A DNA stretch of 64,000 nucleotides. It comes from Bacteroidales bacterium. GTDB lineage: Bacteria; Bacteroidota; Bacteroidia; Bacteroidales; ML635J-15. Below are positions 21,347 to 28,817 of this stretch, one piece after another. Location: the NCBI GenBank assembly GCA_003249955.1, contig QKHS01000011.1, positions 1-64,000 on the forward strand, read 5' to 3'. Each line of letters begins with the position of its first letter. The stretch's first letter is position 1. The notes under the pieces were generated by a model, which was given only the letters and a program-made list of their open reading frames with translations, did not search any database and was not told the DNA's origin. Both the position numbers and the translations under genes were made by a program.

Positions 21347-21845
21347 GTCGACTTGTGTGACCTACGAATGTGCAAATTGTGTGTCAGGTTTACAATGGAC
21401 ACTATCCCATTTCTCCCACACCAAAAGCAATCTCCATCACTAAATCCCACCATATAAAACACTTTCAACATGGCTCAATTTCCCACACAAATATAAATTT
21501 TATTTATCTAAGTAATTTAAGATCAGGATTTATTTTACAAAGTTTTACAAAGATCTTTAAATAACATGATATTGCTGTAATCTGAGTTTTCTATAACGCA
21601 ACAACAATCTGCCTGCCACCTGAAACCCACAACGAAATGTACGGTTGATTAATACTGTGCATAGCAGAAGTAAGCCAAAGGTACACATTAGCCACCCATG
21701 TTATTACGCCAAATTTCCTGTTTTATCGGGAGCAACCCGTCTCCGGACTTCCGTCTTCCGACCCCATAAGCATAAAATTGTGTAAATTTCCTATTGCAGC
21801 ATTTTAAATTTATCATTATCTTTACATTTATAAATTTTGTCGAAG

Positions 21846-22112
21846 ATGAAAAAAGCAAAAACATATTTTTGGTTAAAAACCGCCGGGTTGCTTTCTGCTC
21901 TTATCGTAATGCTTATCGGCACACCGGGATGCAAAGGAAAACGCCATCAGACAAAGTACGGCCCGCCACCGGCTGATTACGATCAGTCCATAACAAAATA
22001 TGGGGTACCGGTTGATTATGATTCCACCTATTATGACCAGACTGTTACAAAATACGGCGTTCCGGCTGATTTGGAAATAGAAGAAATACCGGATACTACA
22101 AAAACTGAATAA
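21846..22112 (+). CDS. Small lipoprotein with three KYGxP(x)D repeats, putative radical SAM substrate/partner
   Basis: MKKAKTYFWLKTAGLLSALIVMLIGTPGCKGKRHQTKYGPPPADYDQSITKYGVPVDYDSTYYDQTVTKYGVPADLE...; 24 bp upstream of rSAM gene; ATG at 21846 preferred over TTG at 21837. Confidence 0.8.
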   Translation: MKKAKTYFWLKTAGLLSALIVMLIGTPGCKGKRHQTKYGPPPADYDQSITKYGVPVDYDSTYYDQTVTKYGVPADLEIEEIPDTTKTE

Positions 22113-22136
22113 AACAGGAGCCTGAAGACATCTTTA

Positions 22137-23222
22137 ATGAATAAACCTGCAAGCAAATTCCGCACTGGTATTGCACAAAAGTTGCATAACCGCTACGTAA
22201 AAACACAATCAAACCTTCACGAGTTAAATTATTTCTTTTGGGAATGTACATCGAACTGCAATCTTGCATGTTTGCACTGCGGAAGCGATTGTAAAATAAT
22301 TCCCGATGTAAAGGATATGCCGGCAGAAGATTTTCTGAATGTCGCGAAACAGGTAGCAACCCGATATAACCCCAAAGAAGTTATGATAGTTGTTACAGGC
22401 GGCGAACCGCTCATGCGCAAAGATCTTCCCGAAACCGGCAAACAACTTAAGTCCATGGGATTCCCGTGGGGAATGGTAAGCAACGGCTATAACCTGAGTC
22501 CTGAACTTTTCCGTAAACTCCGCGAAAGTGGCCTGCGCTCCGCCACAATAAGTCTGGACGGGATGGAAGCAAATCACGACTGGATGAGAGGGAAAACCGG
22601 TTCTTTTGAGCGTGCCGTTAAAGCAATAGAATTGCTGGCAAATGAACCGGGAATGATTTATGACGTTGTTACCTGTGTTAACCGCAGAAACTTCAGCGAA
22701 CTTGAACAGATAAAAGAACTGCTGATAAGCCTCGGGGTAAAAAACTGGCGTTTGTTTATGATTGACCCGATAGGACGTGCTGCCGAGAATCCCGAATTAT
22801 TTTTAAGCCACGAACAGTTCCGGCAAATGCTGGATTTTATAGTTGAGAACCGTAAAGGCGGAAAAATAAAAGCTTCTTATGGTTGCGACGGTTACCTTAA
22901 CGAATATGAAACCAAAATACGGGAAGGATTTTTATTCTGCCGTGCAGGAATTCATGTAGCATCGGTTTTGTCAAACGGCGATATTGGTGCCTGCCCCAAC
23001 ATTAACAGGGGTTTTGTACAGGGCAATATTTACAAAGATGATTTTCTGGATGTGTGGAATAATAAATTTGAAATATACCGTAACAGAAAAAGCTTTAAAA
23101 CCGGTATTTGCAAAAATTGCAAAGAATGGAAAAACTGTCGCGGCGACGGTATGCACCTGCATGAACCGGGAAATGAAAATCCGGTTTTGTGTTATAATGG
23201 ATTATTAGAGGGAAGAGTTTGA
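22137..23222 (+). CDS. Radical SAM/SPASM enzyme, resembles the rSAM/lipoprotein-system family (TIGR04133-like)
   Basis: CNLACLHC (CxxxCxxC) cluster motif, TGGEPL, SPASM Cys set FCRAGIHVASVLSNGDIGACPN...GICKNCKEWKNCRGDGMHLH. Confidence 0.88.
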   Translation: MNKPASKFRTGIAQKLHNRYVKTQSNLHELNYFFWECTSNCNLACLHCGSDCKIIPDVKDMPAEDFLNVAKQVATRYNPKEVMIVVTGGEPLMRKDLPETGKQLKSMGFPWGMVSNGYNLSPELFRKLRESGLRSATISLDGMEANHDWMRGKTGSFERAVKAIELLANEPGMIYDVVTCVNRRNFSELEQIKELLISLGVKNWRLFMIDPIGRAAENPELFLSHEQFRQMLDFIVENRKGGKIKASYGCDGYLNEYETKIREGFLFCRAGIHVASVLSNGDIGACPNINRGFVQGNIYKDDFLDVWNNKFEIYRNRKSFKTGICKNCKEWKNCRGDGMHLHEPGNENPVLCYNGLLEGRV

Positions 23223-23868: not shown

Positions 23869-25053
23869 TTACTTCTTCTCCAGCCTGATAATAAAGTCAC
23901 TAAGAATATTCATAAAGTTCACAAAGGCTTCGTATGGGGAATCGTATGGATTGAAGTATTTATGCACATCGCCGTCGGAAAACCATTTTGTACACATGTA
24001 GTAGAAATGATCGGAAGTTTGCAGGTAGAGCCAGTCTTTCCATACATCCGGATCGTTTAATTCCTTAACCCTGTCGTATAATTTGTAAAGGTTATTAAAT
24101 GCTTCGTCCTGTAATTCATTTCCAAGCCAGGCAGTTAAATCTCTTTCTTCATCAGCCCATGAAATTGGGTGCGGAACATGAATTGCTCCCACAGGGTCAA
24201 GATTTTCCACAATTTCGGACGGAGTCGAAAACGTGAAGTTTGAATATTTGAAAACGGCATTTGGCAAAGCTTTGAGAAACTCAAAAATTCCGGTTTCCGC
24301 CCACTGATGCTCTCCAAATGTTTCATAATCCATAAACAAATTGACGATTTCTTCTTTAGGATCGAGAGCATTTAACCATGAAACAAATTTTTCTGTAGTG
24401 AGAGGAAATTCTTCCCAGTCCCGGTTCGAGAATCTGAAAGCGATATCGTCTGACAATTTAAAATTCTTAAGCAGTACTTTTAGTTTCGGATTTATTGCAT
24501 TGCAATAAAGATAATTCGGACTCTTCCATCCAAGAATGTGTTTTGCTCCTTCTGTAATCATTCCTTTATATCCCATATCGGCAACATATTCGCCTATCCA
24601 GTCGGCATAAATAAGCTCCGTATTACGGAATACTTTTGGTTCAACACCAAAAACCTCTTTTACTTTATCTCGGTGCATTTTAACCTGACGCTCGAATTCT
24701 TCGCGGCTTTTTAAGGCAGAAAGTGAATGCGAATAGGTTTCCTCCAGAATTTCTACTTTACCGGTTGCAACAAGTCTTTTAAAACTCTCCAGCACATCGG
24801 GAGCGTACATCTCGAACTGGTCAATTGCAACACCGGAGATAGAATACGCGATTTTAAAATTATCGCCATACTCGTTAATCAAATCCAGAAAAGTCTGATT
24901 TGCAGGCAGATAGCACTTCTCAGCTACTTTTCGCATAATTGATTTATTCTCAAAATCGTTAAAGTAGTAATGATCGTTGCCAATATCAAAAAACCTGTAT
25001 CTCTTTAACCTGAACGGCTGGTGCACCTGAAAATAGAAACAAATTGTACGCAT
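23869..25053 (-). CDS. Glycoside hydrolase family 57 (alpha-amylase-like)
   Basis: ICFYFQVHQPFRLKRYRFFDIG...VFRNTELIYADWIGEYVADMGYKGMITEGAKHILG...LFMDYETFGEHQ. Confidence 0.93.
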   Translation of the reverse strand: MRTICFYFQVHQPFRLKRYRFFDIGNDHYYFNDFENKSIMRKVAEKCYLPANQTFLDLINEYGDNFKIAYSISGVAIDQFEMYAPDVLESFKRLVATGKVEILEETYSHSLSALKSREEFERQVKMHRDKVKEVFGVEPKVFRNTELIYADWIGEYVADMGYKGMITEGAKHILGWKSPNYLYCNAINPKLKVLLKNFKLSDDIAFRFSNRDWEEFPLTTEKFVSWLNALDPKEEIVNLFMDYETFGEHQWAETGIFEFLKALPNAVFKYSNFTFSTPSEIVENLDPVGAIHVPHPISWADEERDLTAWLGNELQDEAFNNLYKLYDRVKELNDPDVWKDWLYLQTSDHFYYMCTKWFSDGDVHKYFNPYDSPYEAFVNFMNILSDFIIRLEKK

Positions 25054-25117
25054 AGTAAATATTTTATAAAATATTAAAATTCAAATTACAATCCGCGGCG
25101 GCGGACAAATCAAAAAA

Positions 25118-25150
25118 CCCCGGTGCCGGTTGACTGAGCGCAGTCGAAGG
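25118..25150. repeat. Dispersed hairpin motif GGTTGACTGAGCGCAGTCGAAGG
   Basis: Minus strand reads CCTTCGACTGCGCTCAGTCAACCGGCACCGGGG; GACTG-AGCG-CAGTC hairpin. Confidence 0.5.
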
Positions 25151-25218
25151 CAACAAATCACAAATTACAAAACTAAATTTTAGCAGTATTCATTGTTATT
25201 TGTTTTTGTTTCATTAAT

Positions 25219-26502
25219 TCACTTTATCAGTGATTTATAAACTTCATTCACCTTATAAGCCGAATTTTCCCATCTGAGATTTTCGACTTCCTGTTTCCCG
25301 TATTTCTTAAACATTTTCGACAGGCCTTCGTAATGCAACATTCCATAAATTGCATCGGCCATATCGTCAACATCCCAGAAATCAACTTTTAAAGCATGCC
25401 TCAAAACTTCGGAAACTCCCGATTGCTTTGAAATAATTACAGGGACATCGGACATCATTGCTTCCAGAGGCGAAATCCCGAAAGGTTCACTAACCGAAGG
25501 CATTACATAAACATCACTCATAGAGAACATTTCGTAAACTTCCTGTCCTTTTAAAAATCCGGCAAAATGGAATTTTGTTGCAATTCCCAACTTTGCCACC
25601 CGCTTTATCATTTTATTAAGCATATCGCCGCTACCTGCCATAACAAAACGGACATCAGGATCGCGGTCGATAACTTTTTTAGCTGCTTCTATAAAATAAT
25701 CGGGGCCTTTCTGAAATGTCACTCTTCCGAGAAAAGTAACTATTTTCTCATTAAAGCCTTTATTTATTTTAAATTCTTCCGGCAAACTTACCGGTTCAAC
25801 GGAATTATGCACAGTAACTACTTTGTCGGGATGAATTCCGTATTTTTCAATAATTATCTTTCGTGTAAGGTTACTTACTGCTATAACCCTATCGGCAGCT
25901 TCCATGCCTGCACGTTCGATATCGTAAACTTTCTGATTTACATTATCTCCGCTGCGATCAAATTCTGTTGCATGCATATGTACAACCAGTGGTTTTCCCG
26001 ATACATTTTTTGCAGCTATCCCGGCAGAGTATGTAAGCCAGTCGTGAGCATGAATAACATCAAATTCATTGGTCGCAGCGATATACGCGGCAATAAGGGC
26101 ATAGCGGGCTACTTCTTCGTACAGGTTTTTTCCGTAGCTTCCCGAAAAAGTAAATTTACTTGCAAAAACCTGCTCACTAAACTCAGTATGTGAAAATATT
26201 TTGCCTTCAAATATTTTTGCAAAGTCCTCAGGGTCCATATAAGGAATAAGGTTTGATCCTACTTCAAAATATTTAAAATTATTCCAGAACTCATGTTCTT
26301 CTTTTTTTCTTTCGGTAATAACAACGTCTCCGGCATTCTGTAAACGCACATGTGTTAAATCTTCATCTCCGTATGCTTTAGGAACGACAAAAATAATTTC
26401 GGTGCCAAAATGAGACAATCCCTTTGTCAACCCGTAACAGGCTGTTCCGAGACCTCCGGTTATGTGTGGCGGGAACTCCCACCCGAACATTAGTACTTTC
26501 AT
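25219..26502 (-). CDS. Glycosyltransferase family 4 (starch/glycogen synthase-like)
   Basis: MKVLMFGWEFPPHITGGLGTACYGLTKGL; FLGRVTFQKGPDYFIEAA; SVSEPFGISPLEAMMSDVPVI. Confidence 0.92.
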   Translation of the reverse strand: MKVLMFGWEFPPHITGGLGTACYGLTKGLSHFGTEIIFVVPKAYGDEDLTHVRLQNAGDVVITERKKEEHEFWNNFKYFEVGSNLIPYMDPEDFAKIFEGKIFSHTEFSEQVFASKFTFSGSYGKNLYEEVARYALIAAYIAATNEFDVIHAHDWLTYSAGIAAKNVSGKPLVVHMHATEFDRSGDNVNQKVYDIERAGMEAADRVIAVSNLTRKIIIEKYGIHPDKVVTVHNSVEPVSLPEEFKINKGFNEKIVTFLGRVTFQKGPDYFIEAAKKVIDRDPDVRFVMAGSGDMLNKMIKRVAKLGIATKFHFAGFLKGQEVYEMFSMSDVYVMPSVSEPFGISPLEAMMSDVPVIISKQSGVSEVLRHALKVDFWDVDDMADAIYGMLHYEGLSKMFKKYGKQEVENLRWENSAYKVNEVYKSLIK

Positions 26503-26578
26503 ATTTTTGTCTTTATCTTTTTTATTTTCAATCTTTTTCTTTTTACCGGCTGCTTAATAAATTTACTTTCAGCCTTCT

Positions 26579-28522
26579 TTACTTCTTAAACTTACTGATC
26601 ATGTCATAGATTCTTATAAGTTCGGACACGCTCCATGCCTGTGAAATGGCTCCGCGCGGAGCATGCGGCGGATCACCGTCGTAAATTTCCGAAATTGTGC
26701 CTATCCCGTGAACAGTCATTTCTTCTTCAAATGAGTTAAATATTTTTTCGACAAGTGCCAATCCGCATTTATCGTGTATTTTAAGATATGCTTCGCAGAA
26801 ATGTCCCAGTAACCATGGCCATACGGTTCCCTGATGATATGCACTGTCACGCTGTTCCTGATTGCCTTCGCAAACTCCGGTATAATTAGGATTATCGGGA
26901 GAAAGTGACCTTAATCCGCGCGGGGTCAGCAATCCTTTACGGACAGTTTCGAGAACTCTCTCTTTCTTAGAATCTGATATAGGTGAGTATGGCAACGAGC
27001 AGGCAAAAATCTGATTTGGCCTTACAGTGCAATCAACATAATCGTAAGTTACATAATCGGCAAGAAATTTACGTTCTTCGCACCAGAATTTCTCAATAAA
27101 TGACAACTGGGTAATCTCGGGAACATTAATCCAGCGGTTTACAAAATCAGTGTCCCCGTTTTCTTCCGCCAGTTCAAGTGTAAACAATACAGCATTGTAC
27201 CACAGTGCATTTATTTCTACATCAAACCCATGTCTGGGGGTTACGGGTTTTCCTCCCACAACGGCATCCATCCATGTAAGGGCTTTGCCCGTGTCTCCTG
27301 CCCAGATAAGCCCGTTGTCATGCATTTTAATGTTATAATGTGTCCCCTGACGATAGTTTTCAAGTATATGCTTCATTTTTGCCCCGAAGTCCTGCCATAT
27401 TTGCTTTTTATCGCCGGTAAATTTCAGATATTCCTGCAAGGTCCAGAAAAACCACAAAGGGGCATCAACAGAGTTCATGGCAGTAAACTCTCCGGTTCCG
27501 ATATTCGGGAACAGCCCGTCTTTAAGTTCCGATGTCATTGTTTCAAGAACATCCTTACAGGTTTTTATATCGCCGTTATATAGTGTTAATCCGGGCAATG
27601 CTATAAATGTGTCACGTCCCCAGCGGCCAAACCACGGGAAACCTGCAATTATTTCCGTTCTTCCGTTTCTTTTATAAATAAATTGCTGAGCAGCACTTCT
27701 TAGACAATCTATGTATGTTTCTCTCGGCAGACGTTTTTTAAGTTCCGAATTAAACTTTCTGGTTATTGCAGCCGGGCTTATTTCTTTAAGCGCTGCTGTA
27801 AAAATTATACTTTCTCCTTTTTTAATATCCAGATCAAAAAAGCCGGGAACAAAAAGATCTTCTTTAAAATCGTAACCGCGGTTTTGTTCTTCCTGATATT
27901 CTACGTTGTAGTACCAATCAGGAACATGAACATATTCCGGCTCTTTGTTAAACTGCATGTACAGGGATTTATAACCGTCGTACATACGAATTTTAATCCC
28001 GTTTTCGATTGATGTGTATTTTGTATTTACAAATAAATTTGCTTTACTCAGCTTGTGAACATTTCTGAATGCCAGAAATGGTTTAAAACGGATCTTTGTA
28101 TCGGAGTGAGCATCGGCCAGGGTGTACTTTATCATTATGCGGTCGTCCTCGCTTAATATTCTTTCCATTTGCAGAACAACTCCTCCTACACGGCATGTAA
28201 GTTTAGGGATTGTATCAATCTCAAAATCACGCACGTATTTATGCCCTTTGGGTTCATAAACATTACCCGGATATTTTCTTACCCCGAAATTAAACGTGGC
28301 TTCGTGTTGAATTACAGACACATCAAGACCTGAAAGAAGGACATGGTTGTCGTTATCTATGTCTTCCATGGGACAAACCAGCAAACCATGATATTTTCGC
28401 GTATTACAGCCGATAATGGTAGTACTTGCATAAGATCCGGCACGATTTGTACGCAGCAGTTCTCTGCTAAGCGAATATTCAAGATTTATCAATTGTAATT
28501 TGTCGAATTTAATGTATCCCAT
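26579..28522 (-). CDS. Glycogen debranching enzyme (amylo-alpha-1,6-glucosidase type)
   Basis: LLRTNRAGSYASTTIIGCNTRKYHGLLV; GFPWFGRWGRDTFIALPGL; QRDSAYHQGTVWPWLLGHF; start trimmed to MGYIKF. Confidence 0.92.
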   Translation of the reverse strand: MGYIKFDKLQLINLEYSLSRELLRTNRAGSYASTTIIGCNTRKYHGLLVCPMEDIDNDNHVLLSGLDVSVIQHEATFNFGVRKYPGNVYEPKGHKYVRDFEIDTIPKLTCRVGGVVLQMERILSEDDRIMIKYTLADAHSDTKIRFKPFLAFRNVHKLSKANLFVNTKYTSIENGIKIRMYDGYKSLYMQFNKEPEYVHVPDWYYNVEYQEEQNRGYDFKEDLFVPGFFDLDIKKGESIIFTAALKEISPAAITRKFNSELKKRLPRETYIDCLRSAAQQFIYKRNGRTEIIAGFPWFGRWGRDTFIALPGLTLYNGDIKTCKDVLETMTSELKDGLFPNIGTGEFTAMNSVDAPLWFFWTLQEYLKFTGDKKQIWQDFGAKMKHILENYRQGTHYNIKMHDNGLIWAGDTGKALTWMDAVVGGKPVTPRHGFDVEINALWYNAVLFTLELAEENGDTDFVNRWINVPEITQLSFIEKFWCEERKFLADYVTYDYVDCTVRPNQIFACSLPYSPISDSKKERVLETVRKGLLTPRGLRSLSPDNPNYTGVCEGNQEQRDSAYHQGTVWPWLLGHFCEAYLKIHDKCGLALVEKIFNSFEEEMTVHGIGTISEIYDGDPPHAPRGAISQAWSVSELIRIYDMISKFKK

Positions 28523-28817
28523 TTTGCAAAATTTTAAATTCAAAAATATTTATACCTGCCAATATTCTTTTAAAAAGAATATTAAATAATTATAAAGTTT
28601 CCGGAAATTCCGAAAACCTTAATATCGGTAAAAATCTGAAAATTCATACTCAGCCGCGTTGACAGGTTGCAACAAAAATAATAAAATAAATGTTAACAAC
28701 AATGCAATTCTTTGCTGTTTACGTACAAAGTTTAAAAAAGGATTTATTTCCCTGAGTTTTTTATTAAAACAACAGCAAGGTTTTTCTAAAGTGCTGGGAT
28801 TTAAGGAATTCTAGATA

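Follow-up and report, generated by a model that had tools for sequence, protein, structure and literature searches.

A repeat-only lipoprotein and its adjacent TIGR04133 radical SAM/SPASM enzyme as a candidate splicease system in Bacteroidales

Genes at the locus

The window, by which we mean the whole 64-kb stretch of Bacteroidales DNA analysed here, carries an 88-aa precursor lipoprotein gene (21846..22112, + strand), whose product is the candidate substrate, and, after a gap of 24 bp on the same strand, the gene of a 361-aa radical SAM/SPASM enzyme (22137..23222, +), a predicted splicease acting on the upstream product. The lipoprotein ORF starts with ATG, with an in-frame TTG at 21837, and comprises a signal sequence (residues 1-28), a predicted lipidated cysteine (Cys29, 21930-21932), and a mature part of about 60 aa. 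A preliminary description of this DNA had reported both ORFs and their spacing, three KYGxP motifs, and the CxxxCxxC and SPASM cysteines of the enzyme, and we recovered all of these; the lipobox-like signal that it also proposed stands in part, in that Cys29 is present in TPGC while the -3 position is non-canonical. The 60 mature residues contain TKYGPPPADY, TKYGVPVDY, and TKYGVPADL, with little beyond the motif. The predicted splice sites are XYG site 1 (K-Y-G-P-P, followed by PADY; 21954..21968, +; Tyr codon 21957-21959), site 2 (K-Y-G-V-P, followed by VDY; 21996..22010, +; Tyr codon 21999-22001), and site 3 (K-Y-G-V-P, followed by ADL; 22050..22064, +; Tyr codon 22053-22055), and the same architecture is found in close relatives.

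Across six frames of the window, KYGxP occurs only in these three lipoprotein copies. When the 60-aa mature part was shuffled, two or more motifs arose in 1 of 100,000 shuffles and three in 0 of 200,000. The copies differ in their synonymous codons and lack a DNA-repeat signal, indicating that the protein sequence has been kept rather than recently duplicated. As a DNA pattern, KYGxP was found genome-wide at 39 sites compared to 33 in reversed controls, which is near background, and occurrences elsewhere in the genome were therefore rejected as signal; of the genome sites listed, three stand clustered together in the window alone.

The enzyme clears the TIGR04133 cut-off of 425 with 479.9 bits, residues 9-354 aligning to positions 2-346 of the 350-position model, which bears out the earlier suggestion that it is TIGR04133-like. 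The adjacent lipoprotein gene that characterizes this family is also in place, as the ORF with the lipobox-like signal. Pfam domains are Radical_SAM and SPASM, and the cysteines comprise C41-C45-C48 (CxxxCxxC) and, in the SPASM domain, C268, C286, C325, C328, C334, and C352; all nine were invariant in an alignment of ten relatives. An AlphaFold2 model built from eight sequences from genome loci had a mean pLDDT of 72.8, and its nearest folds in the PDB were the RiPP maturases SkfB and SuiB, which form a thioether and a Lys-Trp crosslink, respectively. A search of plasmid DNA for the lipoprotein/enzyme pair gave no match. Downstream, at 23869-28543 on the minus strand, genes resembling a GH57 amylase, a glycosyltransferase, and a glycogen-debranching enzyme (by eye) make up an ordinary glycogen locus that is probably unrelated to the pair.

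TIGR04133 enzymes and lipoproteins are already known as a named pair. The expectation that the window lipoprotein would match the partner family, TIGR04134, failed: it had nothing significant in Pfam or NCBIfam and no NCBIfam match to TIGR04134 even at E up to 1 (cut-off 39.8), and it was absent from the list returned by a genome search with TIGR04134, in which a protein on another contig (C71) rose above the cut-off. The TIGR04134-type XYGxP motif after the lipobox is nevertheless present in it, in three copies. The genome encodes three TIGR04133 enzymes, namely that of the window and two paralogues. The C71 paralogue has as its partner the canonical TIGR04134 protein (46 bits), with the motif CYGTP, and the C65 paralogue (L003 1480-2929, minus strand) has a neighbour with YMAIRP and no YG, reflecting either a change of target or decay of the site. 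Further TIGR04134 matches on contigs C17, C37, and C10 were rejected as substrates because the proteins lack YGxP.

Conservation of the XYG motif in partner lipoproteins

The comparison covered 209 distinct TIGR04133 enzymes, drawn from the genome's own family, order, and phylum as well as from plasmids and named genomes; most belong to uncultured Bacteroidales, and the set also includes Treponema/Spirochaetaceae, Persicobacter, and one Elusimicrobia. The TIGR04133/TIGR04134 pair was present in 89 of the 393 sampled genomes of the order. Partners were assigned by a motif-blind rule, the nearest upstream lipobox-like ORF, which found one in 175 of 206 loci; an earlier rule that took the longest upstream ORF chose wrong genes (130/205) and was dropped. 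YGxP is present in 154 of the 175 partners and YG in 171, compared to a mean of 2.6 partners with YGxP (maximum 10) when the mature parts were shuffled and 4 of 124 lipobox-like ORFs read from the other strand at these loci. Homologues thus do carry an adjacent motif-bearing lipoprotein, as the preliminary description had anticipated. Most exceptions to YGxP lack the Pro and retain XYG, with Pro at +3 kept in 88% of partners, and some of the 31 loci without an upstream lipobox-like ORF under this rule carry a partner downstream (IIAQYGAP, CEYGTP, and similar).

The residue X preceding YG is variable (C 75, V 33, E 30, K 23, M 14, L 6, A 4, N 1). The lipobox Cys itself serves as X in 74 cases, roughly half of the partners with the motif, which places the motif at the membrane-proximal end. 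Next to enzymes at least 60% identical to that of the window, X is Lys at 17 of 17 YGxP sites, and two or three copies are present in seven of nine partner proteins. What is nearly invariant is X-Y-G, mostly with xP after it, and X = Lys marks the clade of the window; the KYG(P/V)P core that had been put forward as the target motif is therefore upheld as a conserved motif and narrowed in its extent, the Lys being clade-specific. This core appears in three unrelated scaffolds: a repeat-only, disordered-looking type, to which the window lipoprotein belongs, Ig-like/CarboxypepD proteins with the motif at the lipobox, and a coiled coil (CVYGSPEV...KVYGPPEM).

Copy number of the motif varies from one to three per partner protein, and in neighbouring clades a single TIGR04133 enzyme is preceded by three to five distinct XYG lipoprotein genes in tandem (L177, L178, L179, L125), which suggests that a single enzyme serves several substrates. 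A copy number that varies around a fixed XYG core looks like that of a substrate, and by this comparison of sequences the lipoprotein is very likely the substrate of the adjacent TIGR04133 enzyme. The earlier proposal of a multi-site substrate gains support from the same comparison, with the repeat as the probable target at its Tyr.

Enzyme relatedness and the putative reaction

The XYG motif is the splice motif of PlpXY (PMC10533398), a splicease with natural sites MYG and LYG that does not need a RiPP leader (PMC10533398; see also PMC11002830 and PMC10373908). Published splice tags are GPIRPLYGLPI and GAVAAGYGVVFPG, which contain LYGLP and GYGVVFP (PMC10533398), and spliced residues and products have been reported as protease inhibitors (PMC10373908). 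Among the loci examined here, a TIGR04103 enzyme on a Nostoc plasmid adjoins a Nif11 precursor with the C-terminal end ALYGLPPELF, and TEYGVVFPYD lies beside the L177 enzyme, a relative of the window enzyme.

Outside its own family the window enzyme scores highest against AhbD (heme b synthase, 142.7 bits), TIGR04053 (138.9), and TIGR04103 (135.1, the third-best other family), with NirJ2 also within 130-143 bits, values so nearly equal that HMM scores alone are not decisive. An unrooted phylogeny of 44 enzymes placed TIGR04133, TIGR04103, TIGR03913, and the PlpX-like type found on contig 51 of the same genome (C51-type) apart from NirJ, AhbD-like, TIGR04053, TIGR04347, and MftC enzymes with support of 98.7/100, a split that is no proof of a clade, with the exact sister group unplaced, given that the tree is unrooted and TIGR04133 lies on a long branch. 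In an earlier tree that included a sulfatase maturase and lacked any AhbD-like sequence, the corresponding split had support of 87.6/84. The TIGR04133 and PlpX-like groups both carry CxxxCxHCGS, W204, G252, E258, C268, and C286, and G49 is found in 100% of both groups and 0% of the outgroup. The neighbours of the PlpX-like group also bear XYG, including MPYGVAIR in DUF1843 proteins beside GDL enzymes, PVMYGTGVRM ending a small Agathobacter ORF, and LLYGTPPVPLY (L288). In the DUF1843 peptides beside TIGR03913 enzymes, XYG (PYG, LYG) lies near the N-terminus in L285, L286, and one of three in L174, so that the GDL/TIGR03913 system may be a splicease system as well.

From the motif and the enzyme comparison together, we consider it probable that the window pair is a PlpX-type splicease with its XYG substrate, each K-Y-G(-x-P) being a modification site, and the chemistry that the preliminary description left open would most likely be tyramine excision. 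We infer that the TIGR04133 enzyme would act on the motif in the cytoplasm, ahead of lipoprotein export, cutting the tyramine portion (C8H9NO) out of each Tyr, with a mass change of about -135.07 Da at every site and about -405 Da for three, and rejoining the backbone, whereby each Lys would be turned into a ketoamide (alpha-keto-beta-amino) residue adjoining Gly. The spliced product would then be exported, lipidated at Cys29, and displayed as a short, flexible chain whose three ketoamides are electrophilic and bear Lys side chains. In the largest class of partners, in which X is the lipobox Cys, splicing would yield a lipidated ketoamide residue, for which we know of no precedent. We go no further than probable for splicing because the enzyme falls below the TIGR04103 cut-off, has no obvious PlpY, and would have an odd product at CYGTP, a ketoamide on a lipidated Cys.

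A different radical reaction at X-Y-G(-x-P), with the lipoprotein still the substrate, is the strongest competitor and in our judgement rather unlikely. It could be a Tyr/Pro crosslink (cyclophane or ether), an epimerisation, or a reaction of the oxidative decarboxylation type, and SPASM enzymes do catalyse many reactions, including the crosslinks formed by the two nearest folds, SkfB and SuiB; the MftC, AhbD, and NirJ-type families are close by HMM score, and the +3 Pro is retained in most partners. The same families (NirJ, AhbD-like, TIGR04053, and MftC) nevertheless lie across the well-supported split in the tree, and partners that lose the Pro keep XYG, the triplet by which splicease sites are defined, in which X is free to vary (C, V, E, K, M, L, A), as is compatible with splicing.

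Possible function and comparison with known systems

Ketoamides are transition-state mimics for serine and cysteine proteases. The likeliest use of the spliced lipoprotein would be to inhibit, in a covalent but reversible way, proteases that cut after Lys, which a lipid-anchored chain with Lys-ketoamides would suit; we regard such an inhibitor function for the window lipoprotein as a serious possibility, at somewhat less than even chances. Two loci outside the window are relevant to this idea. On contig 51 of the same genome (L278 3394-6890), a PlpX-like radical SAM-TPR protein (227 bits to TIGR04103) is encoded directly downstream of a 284-aa protein with a chagasin domain (Inhibitor_I42, PF09394; 37.3 bits, cut-off 27.2; PDB match to amoebiasin-2, E = 3e-4), whose tail has eight XYG repeats, LYYGIPC among them, and the locus resembles a protease-inhibitor cluster. 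In a second genome from this order (L291 1468-3599), a C51-type enzyme lies beside a 214-aa protein with six (L/M/V/F)KYGYP repeats (KYGYPC-type); this protein had no Pfam match and a single-sequence AlphaFold2 pLDDT of 37.6, and its chagasin-like domain accordingly denotes BLASTP similarity to the contig 51 protein only, partly through the repeats. Proteins adjoining the other radical SAM loci of the same genomes (L267-L277, L279, L280) had no repeated XYG.

The chagasin-XYG gene on contig 51 is also adjoined by a DUF1842 protein and a 95-aa ORF with a cystatin-like QLVAG; the latter had no Pfam or PDB match and is not claimed as an inhibitor.

If splicing does occur, the ketoamides might instead crosslink or anchor the lipoprotein to nucleophiles on the cell surface, in adhesion or envelope attachment, an alternative that concerns function only, overlaps with splicing, and appears unlikely. 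Ketoamides are general electrophiles, and the membrane-proximal motif in partners whose X is the lipobox Cys would be poorly placed to meet external proteases. The relatives that combine a chagasin domain with XYG or KYG repeats, together with the protease inhibition reported for spliced products (PMC10373908), argue against anchoring. Least probable by far is that the motif serves for docking or structure, with the modified residue or molecule elsewhere and the lipoprotein a helper or sensor of the enzyme, since, although the literature searched reports no modification for any TIGR04133 system and 4 of 175 partners lack YG, the mature window protein holds little except the motif, and both the copy number per protein and the tandem arrays of up to five lipoprotein genes per enzyme are substrate-like rather than those of a stoichiometric helper.

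Our best reading of the window protein is thus a leaderless, surface-anchored, multi-site splicease substrate that may well be a protease inhibitor. More tentatively, TIGR04133 as a whole may represent a large branch of leaderless, PlpY-independent spliceases in which the signal sequence replaces the leader and the products are protease inhibitors of the cell surface, anchored by lipid and carrying ketoamides at multiple sites; X (Lys, Glu, Val, Met, or lipidated Cys) would set the protease that is trapped, and tandem lipoproteins would form an adjustable inhibitor set. If correct, the splicing proposal would say for the entire TIGR04133/TIGR04134 family which reaction takes place and where, would carry backbone splicing beyond RiPP clusters to lipoproteins of the cell surface, and would offer studies of mechanism and protein engineering a minimal substrate of 60 aa in which the site spans 5-9 residues; it comes with a sharp predicted mass shift at each site. 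The literature searched, whose reach did not extend to Scott et al. 2022, contained no account of the motif, the chemistry, or the repeat-only form, and no paper with TIGR04133 or KYGVP as its subject. That study (Chem) is said to be a splicease survey and may already list TIGR04133.

Compared to known TIGR04133/TIGR04134 (rSAM_w_lipo/lipo_with_rSAM) systems of NCBIfam, the window has an enzyme above the curated cut-off and a lipoprotein gene immediately upstream; the lipoprotein differs in lacking an Ig-like/CarboxypepD domain, in giving no score against TIGR04134, and in having three XYG motifs rather than one at the lipobox. The GDL-motif radical SAM (TIGR03913)/DUF1843 and PlpX-like/chagasin-XYG (C51, L291) systems have enzymes on the TIGR04133 side of the tree and, like the window, XYG in their neighbours (MPYGVAIR, LYYGIPC, LKYGYPC), whereas their partners lack a lipobox and their enzymes have TPR or longer C-terminal parts. 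PlpXY of the Pleurocapsa plp cluster differs in that the window substrate is an exported lipoprotein with X = Lys and no Nif11/nitrile-hydratase leader seen, and the window enzyme's score against TIGR04103 (IPR026482) is far below the cut-off of 725; no Nif11/NHLP-like protein or obvious PlpY-like ORF was seen next to it, PlpY being tiny and divergent. The likeness to PlpXY lies in a SPASM radical SAM enzyme with X-Y-G sites in its partner, here three KYG, in the CxxxCxHCGS and other residues common to TIGR04133 and TIGR04103, and in the YGxP context that the window sites share with the splice tag LYGLP and with the Nostoc TIGR04103 precursor, which, like KYGPPPADY, has YGxP and, four positions beyond its Pro, an aromatic residue.
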